A stretch of 64,000 nt of DNA from Dechloromonas sp. HYN0024 (GTDB lineage: Bacteria > Pseudomonadota > Gammaproteobacteria > Burkholderiales > Rhodocyclaceae). The notes under the pieces were generated by a model. The model ran no database searches, was not told the origin of the DNA, and was given only the letters and a program-made list of their open reading frames with translations. The position numbers and the translations under genes are program-made. Of this stretch, positions 20,493 through 21,897 are shown piece by piece (positions within the stretch are counted from its first letter, which is position 1; every line of letters begins with the position of its first letter). The DNA is taken from NCBI RefSeq assembly GCF_003441615.1, contig NZ_CP031842.1:2798001-2862000 (forward strand), read 5' to 3'.

Positions 20493-20515
20493 AAACCGGA
20501 GACAGGCTCCGGTTT
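20493..20515 (+). terminator. osmC terminator hairpin, T-tract cut by the insertion sequence
   Basis: AAACCGGAG pairs with CTCCGGTTT around ACAGG. The left flank reads CAATAAAAAACCGGAG. Its exact complement CTCCGGTTTTTTATTG can be rebuilt by joining 20507-20515 to the bases after the insertion sequence (about 21877-21883). It was therefore probably a symmetric terminator serving both osmC (+) and grxD (-) before the insertion. Confidence 0.75.
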
Positions 20516-20521
20516 AATGAG

Positions 20522-20535
20522 ATGGTCAGCCCGAT
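20522..20535 (+). repeat. Left subterminal inverted repeat of the insertion sequence
   Basis: ATGGTCAGCCCGAT is the exact reverse complement of 21859-21872. Confidence 0.88.
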
Positions 20536-20569
20536 CCCCACCAGCGGTAAGCTGAGTGGGGATTTTTTC
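20534..20569 (+). terminator. Hairpin with T-run inside the left end of the insertion sequence
   Basis: ATCCCCAC pairs with GTGGGGAT around a 14-nt loop and is followed by a T-run, 18-24 bp before the transposase ATG. It has the form of a Rho-independent terminator. It would stop transcripts entering from osmC, or hide the ribosome-binding site when read through. Confidence 0.6.
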
Positions 20570-20586
20570 TTTTGGAGGCGATCATC

Positions 20587-21618
20587 ATGAACACGGTTAC
20601 CCTCATTGGCATTGATCTTGGAAAGCATTGTTTTCATTTACATGGGCAGGATGCCCAAGGTCGCATGGTATTTCGCAAGAAGCTTTCGCGTAGCCAGATG
20701 CTGACGCAGCTGGCCAATTTCCCGGTTTGTCGGGTTGTGATGGAGGCGTGTGCGGGTGCGCACTGGATTGCCCGGCGCCTATCGGCGATGGGTCACGAGG
20801 CGAAGTTGATTTCACCGCAGTTTGTAAAGCCGTTCGTCCAAGGCAACAAGAATGACTTTGCCGACGCGCAGGCGATCTGCGAAGCGGCGAGCCGACCGAA
20901 CATGCGTTTTGTGAGTCCGCGCAATGAAAGCCAGCAGACCATCTCGGCGACGCATCGCGTGCGTGAGGCGCTGGTGCGGGATCGGACGTCGACGACTAAC
21001 CAGATCCACGCCTTCTTGCTGGAATTTGGGATCAGCTTACCGAAAGGCCCGGCCATCATCAAACGCTTGCCAGCCGTGCTGGCCGAGCATGAAGCAGTTT
21101 TGCCACCTCGCCTGATGGCTGTTATCGAGCACTTGCGTGCGCATATCAAATATCTGGATGAACAGATCAAAGCGGTCGAGGGCGAATTGGCTCAACAACT
21201 GGCTGAAGACGAGCGTAGCCAACGCTTATTGGAAATTCCTGGCATTGGGCCGATCACCGCCAGCGTCCTGGCGGTCGAACTGGGCGATGCCCATCAGTTT
21301 GCCAATGCTCGCCAGTTCGCCGCCTCCATCGGTCTGGTGCCCCGTCAGTACAGCACCGGCGGCAAACCAACCTTGCTCGGCATCAGCAAACGGGGCGACA
21401 AGAATTTGCGACGATTGCTCGTTCAGGGGGCACGGACCATCATGCAACGTATTCAGACAAGAAGCGATGGGCTCGGTGAATGGGTACGGGACATGCTGTG
21501 CCGACGGCACTCGAATGTCGTGGCCTGCGCGCTGGCCAACAAAATGGCGAGGATCGCCTGGGCTATCCTCGCCAAAGGGACACACTATCAATCCCGTTCG
21601 CTGGCTGCCACCATCTGA
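20587..21618 (+). CDS. IS110/IS1111-family transposase
   Basis: 343 residues. The N-terminal RuvC-like DEDD domain begins GIDLGKHCFHLHG, continues with VVMEACAGAHWIA and includes KNDFADAQAICEA. A coiled-coil region follows at about residues 195-215. The C-terminal Transposase_20 domain has the helix-hairpin-helix LLEIPGIGPITASVL and the ASIGLVPRQYSTGGK motif carrying the catalytic serine. Such recombinases use an element-encoded RNA to recognise donor and target. GGAGG lies 11 bases before the ATG. No frameshift or stop interrupts the gene, so it may be active. Confidence 0.95.
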   Translation: MNTVTLIGIDLGKHCFHLHGQDAQGRMVFRKKLSRSQMLTQLANFPVCRVVMEACAGAHWIARRLSAMGHEAKLISPQFVKPFVQGNKNDFADAQAICEAASRPNMRFVSPRNESQQTISATHRVREALVRDRTSTTNQIHAFLLEFGISLPKGPAIIKRLPAVLAEHEAVLPPRLMAVIEHLRAHIKYLDEQIKAVEGELAQQLAEDERSQRLLEIPGIGPITASVLAVELGDAHQFANARQFAASIGLVPRQYSTGGKPTLLGISKRGDKNLRRLLVQGARTIMQRIQTRSDGLGEWVRDMLCRRHSNVVACALANKMARIAWAILAKGTHYQSRSLAATI

Positions 21619-21639
21619 CGGAACGCTTCACCTTTTTGT

Positions 21640-21825
21640 AACCCACCTGGTTTTGCGACGGTAGATCACGTGATGAACTAAACGGCACAACGGCCTGGCA
21701 AAGAACCTGACAATAAAAACAGCGATCACACGCTGATGGTTTTTTGAGGATTGCCAGGCGCGGCTCTCATCGTGGCGCGGGGAATTCCTTCCCCAATTCG
21801 ACGCCGGATAGATTTGCGCAAGCCA
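21640..21825 (+). ncRNA. Predicted bridge/seek guide RNA of the insertion sequence
   Basis: Two adjacent internal-loop hairpins can be drawn. Target loop: the outer stem CCTGGCAA (21694-21701) pairs with TTGCCAGG (21751-21758), and the inner hairpin is CAGCG-ATCACA-CGCTG (21720-21735). One loop strand carries CAATAAAAA (21711-21719), complementary to the right insertion flank; the other carries GGTTTTTT (21738-21745), like the left flank. Donor loop: the inner hairpin is GGGGAA-TTCC-TTCCCC (21779-21794). One strand has TCTCAT (21765-21770), complementary to the left end of the element; the other has ATAGATTT (21808-21815), identical to the right end. RNA ends are guesses. Confidence 0.72.
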
Positions 21826-21858
21826 ACTTTAGTTTAAAACAAAATCTCCCTTGCAAAA

Positions 21859-21872
21859 ATCGGGCTGACCAT
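21859..21872 (+). repeat. Right subterminal inverted repeat of the insertion sequence
   Basis: ATCGGGCTGACCAT is the exact reverse complement of 20522-20535. TTGCAA at 21851-21856, just inside, could act as an outward -35 box. Confidence 0.88.
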
Positions 21873-21897
21873 AGATTTTATTGGGACGGCAGCAAAC

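Follow-up and report, generated by a model that had tools for sequence, protein, structure and literature searches.

The insertion sequences (ISs) IS4321 and IS5075 have the terminal repeats of Tn21-family transposons as their target, and an IS1111-type element akin to both is present in a 64,000-nucleotide stretch of Dechloromonas sp. HYN0024 (contig NZ_CP031842.1, positions 2,798,001 to 2,862,000; this whole stretch is called the window, and positions are counted from its first letter). The window IS resembles them in its transposase (56-57% identity), in its ends (TAATGAG, sub-terminal inverted repeat (sTIR), AGA), in the predicted fold of its guide RNA (found in IS4321 and IS5075 copies by our covariance model at 124 bits, one such copy being in the model alignment) and in the cores CTCAT and ATAGATT of the donor guide strands, whereas its target guides are different and its target is a terminator rather than a transposon end. 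An original prediction, made from the letters of the window, had rightly read an IS1111-type element with guides but overlooked both this kinship of the RNA and the terminator target.

Other described systems share further features with the window IS. ISEc11, ISKpn4, ISPa11 and ISPst6 also have a non-coding region downstream of the transposase gene (tnp), a top-strand guide placed first, a 7-nt extension and a circle-junction promoter, but they target a linear site, attC or REP (PMC11187229). The guides described there are target guides, and the function of the long RNA is left open, whereas the 3′ half of the window IS RNA contains covarying donor guides. The IS621 bridge RNA is similar in its two internal loops, its four guides and the joining of target and donor at a core, but it lies in the left end with the bottom-strand guide first, and a long sTIR distinguishes the window IS (PMC11208160). 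A PDB sequence search with the window transposase matched IS621 and ISCro4 only, and IS621 over residues 183-335 only. The founding family member, Coxiella burnetii IS1111, has a repeated, palindromic stem-loop as its insertion site (PMC2104537, PMC5896051), and the nearest parallel in target choice is offered by group IIC introns, which are retroelements with unrelated machinery (PMC7923331). The family, its mechanism, the guide RNA and the reversed order of target guides are already known. Predicted donor guides for three IS1111 elements appear in a figure of the bridge RNA paper, which also notes potential donor-binding nucleotides in the multi-loop of many IS1111 orthologues (PMC11208160); the donor loop has therefore been proposed before, and the addition here is a covariation test over many elements. 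Searches of an open-licence PMC library found no paper whose title, abstract or consulted passages describe an IS1111/IS110 element targeting terminators, nor was a statement on donor-guide order in IS1111 elements found in the text consulted, on which basis the terminator target and the covarying donor loop seem unpublished.

The most probable explanation (about 0.92) is that the element is an IS1111-family IS near IS4321/IS5075, whose two-loop RNA would guide it to its target and to the IS ends, and whose lineage mostly enters intrinsic terminators. This explanation is built on sequence comparison, namely on the element boundaries (within one T), uninterrupted sites, the RNA fold, four guide-partner covariations and the terminator targets. 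The features are listed in Table 1.

Table 1. Features of the insertion sequence, its predicted guide RNA and its target in the window
Feature	Position	Strand	Basis or remark
Left target half: intrinsic terminator hairpin AACCGGAG[ACAGG]CTCCGGTT	20494..20514	+	ends at element
IS1111-type insertion sequence, whole, with 7-nt left and 3-nt right extensions	20515..21875	+	sTIR pair with extensions; 5 genome copies; uninterrupted same-genus sites
Left extension TAATGAG	20515..20521	+	first base perhaps shared core base; would supply -10 once ends join
Left sTIR ATGGTCAGCCCGAT	20522..20535	+	
Leader hairpin and T-tract, just upstream of tnp and its ribosome-binding site	20534..20568	+	lenient terminator test
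Transposase gene, 343 aa	20587..21618	+	DEDD_Tnp_IS110 and Transposase_20 domains
Predicted guide RNA (seekRNA/bridge RNA), two internal-loop hairpins	21686..21824	+	covariance-model match 147.8 bits; compensatory changes
Target-binding hairpin (predicted)	21693..21759	+	stems 21693-21701/21751-21759, 21706-21708/21747-21749, 21720-21724/21731-21735
Right target guide CAATAAAA	21711..21718	+	complementary to right flank TTTTATTG
Left target guide ATGGTT followed by TTTT	21736..21745	+	equals left flank; would pair with bottom strand
Donor-binding hairpin (predicted)	21760..21819	+	stems 21760-21761/21818-21819, 21774-21777/21802-21805, plus inner stem
Donor guide for left IS end, TCTCAT	21765..21770	+	complementary to ATGAGA 20517-20522
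Donor guide for right IS end, ATAGATTT	21808..21815	+	identical to 21871-21878
-35-like TTGCAA	21851..21856	+	joined ends give TTGCAA-17-GATAAT
Right sTIR ATCGGGCTGACCAT	21859..21872	+	
Right extension AGA	21873..21875	+	
Right target half: remaining T-tract TTTTATTG	21876..21883	+	

The element, its insertion site and its predicted RNA

The IS1111-type identity is borne out by several traits. The transposase combines an N-terminal DEDD (RuvC-like) domain with a C-terminal Transposase_20 domain (PF01548 1.7e-17, PF02371 4.3e-25) and matches NF033542 at 357.8 bits (cut-off 140); the ends consist of a 14-nt perfect sTIR with TAATGAG and AGA; and a long non-coding region (21619-21875) follows the stop codon of tnp. 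The guide RNA lies in this region, downstream of tnp, rather than in the left end as in the IS110 group (IS621-type). The reading frame of tnp is open in the window copy, with an alternative in-frame TTG start at 20572 giving a 348-aa protein. The limits of the element were set by the sub-terminal repeats and the IS1111 convention of a 7-nt left and a 3-nt right extension. As this convention puts the start of the element at 20515, the left flank ends GGTT; the left flank originally given as GGTTT (20511-20515) is one base too long by this convention, and one T at the left junction is assignable to neither target nor element. Five copies are present in the genome; the identity is 100% (rounded) for four of them and 94% for the fifth, which has a single in-frame TAG in tnp. 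In this last copy (L111 / L005), the left target guide is altered, the left flank ends GGGTTG and the right flank diverges after TTTTA.

The window copy splits the bidirectional terminator that separates an OsmC-like gene from a glutaredoxin gene convergent to it. A search with the joined flanks gave some match in 58 of 60 same-genus genomes (own genome among the 58), and a terminator-like hairpin was uninterrupted at the matching place in 14/14 of the other same-genus loci fetched, which were the best-scoring ones; at least three T's stood at the junction in 13 of these 14, the remaining locus (L171) being without a T-run. The insertion is site-specific and without target duplication, the joined flanks giving one terminator that resembles the same-genus ones to within one T. 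In some same-genus genomes (among them G964, G985 and G954), the OsmC-like and glutaredoxin matches are several kilobases apart; the intergenic site may take up other DNA as well, or the genes may simply not be adjacent in those relatives. A similar empty-site search for one copy of genome G706 returned mostly upstream-gene matches, with a different terminator in 10/11 fetched neighbours, and was set aside.

The comparisons are based on a main set of 57 insertions with 41 guide types and on a further 21 more distant relatives. Viral contigs contributed two loci. L043 (an assembly artefact) and L007 (a false repeat pair) were removed before the 57 were counted, as were elements without a sTIR pair (12 of them of >60% identity, 8 of these ending inside the gene at a contig end), rows of <46% identity (including L064), 8 duplicates of an insertion already represented, and elements whose right extension was neither AGA nor ACA. 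Near-repeats were kept (L036/L037; L053/L103, with one guide at two sites; L104/L107/L109; L117/L121; L124/L125). A hand-picked set of 35 wider relatives comprises 14 main-clade members, chosen for variety of ends, and the 21 further relatives whose repeat pair is credible; eight with a doubtful pair were left out (L009, L027, L031, L075, L082, L084, L086 and L098).

An alignment of related elements, from which a covariance model of the kind proposed in the original prediction was built, yields two hairpins with internal loops, including the predicted stem of 21694-21701 with 21751-21758. The model was built from the same family, window copy included, so the score of 147.8 bits is not independent. 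In the alignment of 41 guide types, double compensatory changes are present in 19/27 stem pairs, and 97.2% of 1107 cells are paired, a level reached by 0/500 shuffles; sliding the stem partners lowers pairing to 31-41%. The single-sequence fold agrees in outline with this alignment-based one. The model also matches 35/35 wider relatives, 12 of which sit in its own alignment. Scanned against Rfam at gathering thresholds, the window yielded a tRNA only, so that no Rfam family covers the guide RNA at that threshold. An additional match outside the IS in L004 (628-777, minus strand, 20.2 bits) was set aside.

Four guide strands and their partners

The original prediction had paired CAATAAAAA, from 21711, with the right flank TTTTATTG, likened GGTTTTTT (21738-21745) to the left flank, and assigned TCTCAT and ATAGATTT to the left and right IS ends. 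All of these strings were confirmed at their positions. Since the matches of a single copy are short and AT-rich, chance is not excludable from the window copy alone, but it is excludable across relatives. In a blind covariation scan, all windows of the non-coding region (193-196) were scored over 40 guide types in both polarities with 5000 permutations, after removal of mostly-gap alignment columns. For each of the four partners, the top window in the claimed polarity was the claimed guide, with 0/5000 permutations reaching it. For the right flank, CAATAAAA was best (z 7.8), followed by a one-base shift of the same guide (5.3) and then by 3.2, and for the left flank ATGGTT was best (z 12.4; next 2.9); in the opposite polarity, nothing exceeded z 2.1 for the right flank or 3.5 for the left. 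For the left end TCTCAT was best (z 8.1; next 4.1), and for the right end ATAGA (z 6.3), tied solely with the right end itself (next 4.5).

The target guides also fit their own flanks better than permuted ones. With one representative per guide, and with slips of one or two bases allowed in observed and permuted data alike because a junction in a T-tract is not exactly placeable, right guides matched 6.94/9 bases versus 5.35 permuted (33 guides) and left guides 4.27/5 versus 2.65 (37 guides), in both cases with 0/20000 permutations. The 35 wider relatives gave 6.60/8 versus 3.51 and 4.09/5 versus 2.20, again with 0/20000. The cleanest matches belong to elements with non-T-rich targets (L054 TACTTGAT, L153 TTCCGTTTT, L025 TGACTTCTGC, L032 TGGTACTTCG). 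IS5075/IS4321 served as a positive control, in which the right guide matches 9/9 right-flank bases by eye; the same type (L153) scored 9/9. Thus, guides that failed to covary with flanks elsewhere, which the original prediction had named as the outcome that would speak against it, were looked for, and the target guides came through strongly. The plasmid elements L117 and L121, nearly identical and inserted at one and the same site, differ by one T in both the left target guide and the right flank, which could be chance or a matched change.

For the donor guides, the 35 wider relatives are a better test than the blind scan. In 35/35 of them the right end is reproduced exactly by its guide (5.00/5 versus 3.94 permuted; 0/20000), which follows all six variants (AGA, ACA, CTA, GTA, GCA and ATA) through at least eight changes on a transposase tree. 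The left-end guide also exceeds expectation (5.20/6 versus 4.42 permuted; 0/20000), with compensating changes outside TAAT in L105, L041, L072 and L076, further differences that are in some cases wobble-compatible, and poor matches in L116, L038 and L054. Accordingly, the right-end guide of the original prediction is strongly upheld, and its left-end guide stands as a string and as the best window, with covariation weaker than that of the other three. In L041 and L042, left ends TAATAGG face guides CTCCCAT, with one left-end position compensated and the neighbouring one mismatched; such pairs may be halfway stages in the evolution of the ends. The left extension and the right flank begin with the same base in 30/35, as would suit a core base common to both.

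Each loop begins with the guide for its right-hand partner, this partner being the right flank in the target loop and the left IS end, as the right half of the joined donor, in the other. The top-strand guide thus lies 5′ of the bottom-strand guide (21711 before 21736), as supported by covariation; in the IS110 group the bottom-strand guide is 5′, and the order here is reversed. The original prediction had stated this order, opposite to that of IS621, for both loops, and for the target guides it is the order published for IS1111 elements in contrast to IS110-type ones (PMC11187229). In a wide sense, the predicted RNA may be called a bridge RNA, as both of its loops covary with target and donor ends, the left-end guide being the weakest.

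Intrinsic terminators as a target class

Under a strict hairpin test, a terminator-like hairpin followed by T's adjoins 28/53 insertions (the 57 less 4 without a left flank), compared with 36/12831 random, 28/681 NTTTT and 18/206 SSNTTTT positions in the same loci. Such insertions account for 19/23 at ≥74% transposase identity to the window copy and 9/30 below it, and at least one is found in 18/40 guide types (10/14 among the closest). In the own genome all five copies sit at terminators, as do all seven detected in G706. Many left guides read GG plus one or two bases plus a T-run, and the matching right guides are A-runs, so a bias to the terminator foot is written in the guide. Members with other guides insert elsewhere (L117, L121 and L123 at the edge of annotated plasmid genes), so that the preference lies most likely in the guide and not in the enzyme. 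Among own-genome sites with at most one mismatch from GGTTTTTTATTG, 12/23 are terminator-like and 11/23 are not, a comparison that is confounded by selection.

Two features near the left end may relate to this target. A leader hairpin with a T-run lies between the left repeat and tnp in 30/41 guide types by a lenient test, with stems that are diverged yet complementary, and probably restores termination and shields tnp from read-through. In ISPpu9, a structured 5′ leader is described as hampering tnp translation, and translational control is therefore an alternative role for the leader hairpin. In addition, the joined ends (21851-21875 plus 20515-20521) would form a promoter-like pair, which is seen in 37/40 guide types, the inserted state having GATTTT in place of the -10; some conservation of the left end must therefore reflect the promoter. 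A circular intermediate with a junction promoter is a trait of the IS1111 family, and the sequence would fit it if the ends join; co-purification of the RNA with the transposase is another family trait.

The proposed mechanism would run as follows. The right end of the IS would encode a two-loop guide RNA that is transcribed, binds the transposase and pairs with DNA through both loops, the first pairing with the target halves (right half first, left half second) and the second with the IS ends, brought together at the junction of the circular intermediate (left end first, right end second). The DEDD recombinase would then join target and element at the shared core base or bases. As the target guides of this lineage mostly correspond to the foot on the 3′ side of an intrinsic terminator hairpin, together with its T-tract (in the window, GGTT followed by TTTTATTG), the element would land inside terminators in one orientation, with tnp co-directional with the transcript being ended, and its own hairpin and T-tract just inside the left end would probably take over termination.

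Alternative explanations and significance

Several observations weigh against this interpretation. In the blind scan, windows without a role in the model reached z 4.1 (left end), and unrelated windows of the other polarity reached 4.7 (left end) and 5.7 (right end, 0/5000 permutations); end-guide scores are inflated by relatedness, because end changes are few and follow the tree. The transposase tree itself has long branches (L067, L056 and L071) and one join flagged by the program. The left-end guide is exact in just 11/35, and a second reason for keeping TAAT in the left end is its use as a -10 element. Moreover, an 82-nt seekRNA was reported as sufficient for ISEc11 transposition (PMC11187229), by which the need for a donor loop is questioned. 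Among target guides, misfits occur on the right (2/9 in L045, 4/9 in L119, 5/9 in L122) and on the left (0/5 in L058, 1/5 in L038, 3/5 in L054 and L057), and in comparison with every other flank the own one ranks first or joint first for only 15/33 right and 30/37 left guides, as is expected where a T-run is common to many targets. The strict hairpin test was failed by 25/53 insertions.

Chance matching in AT-rich sequence, although each match in a single copy is short and T/A-rich, is hardly credible, since permutation of flanks preserves AT-richness and yet 0/20000 reach the observed match; together with the blind scan this refutes it, and the original judgement that the placement of the matches was unlikely by chance holds across relatives. 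It is unlikely that the target loop is the sole guide and that the second loop fits the ends through a shared repeat, a promoter constraint or RNA processing. The short ISEc11 seekRNA, the -10 supplied by TAATGAG to the circle promoter, the few exact left-end guides and the inflated end scores would all suit such a case, but the right-end guide tracks every end variant on the tree, and the left-end guide has compensating changes beyond the part constrained by the promoter. Recognition of a terminator (or attC/REP-like) DNA hairpin by its shape, with the RNA matches being secondary, is quite improbable. The closest relatives do mostly adjoin a hairpin, about half of the guide-like own-genome sites are terminator-like and yet every own-genome copy is at a terminator, and a stem-loop insertion site has been proposed for IS1111 itself (PMC2104537); however, several of the insertions failing the hairpin test fit their own guides well (for example L153, L056 and L054, each in its right flank), and both flanks covary with the RNA. 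Unlikely, too, is the idea that terminators are hit only through selection against other insertions, with a guide that is itself unbiased towards terminators. Survivorship could make the pattern more pronounced, as 11/23 of the guide-like sites are not terminator-like, but the bias is spelled in the guides themselves (GG and a T-run on the left, an A-run on the right).

The insertions compared here provide a natural data set for reading each of the four guides of IS1111-type RNAs against its partner, making donor-loop use in IS1111 elements and the purpose of the long seekRNA testable. Intrinsic terminators would also join attC, REP and transposon ends among the target classes of short RNA guides. 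For engineering, terminators are attractive places to insert DNA, since genes are spared there. We lean, at slightly better than even confidence, towards a broader proposal, in which this IS1111 lineage has made intrinsic terminators a renewable safe harbour throughout the genome, its guides reading the one part common to terminators, the GC foot and T-tract. The element would split the terminator in one set orientation and give a hairpin and T-tract of its own in exchange; the RNA would be a genuine bridge RNA with its polarity reversed, its donor loop pairing with both IS ends, though a short RNA with target guides only reportedly suffices in another IS1111 element.
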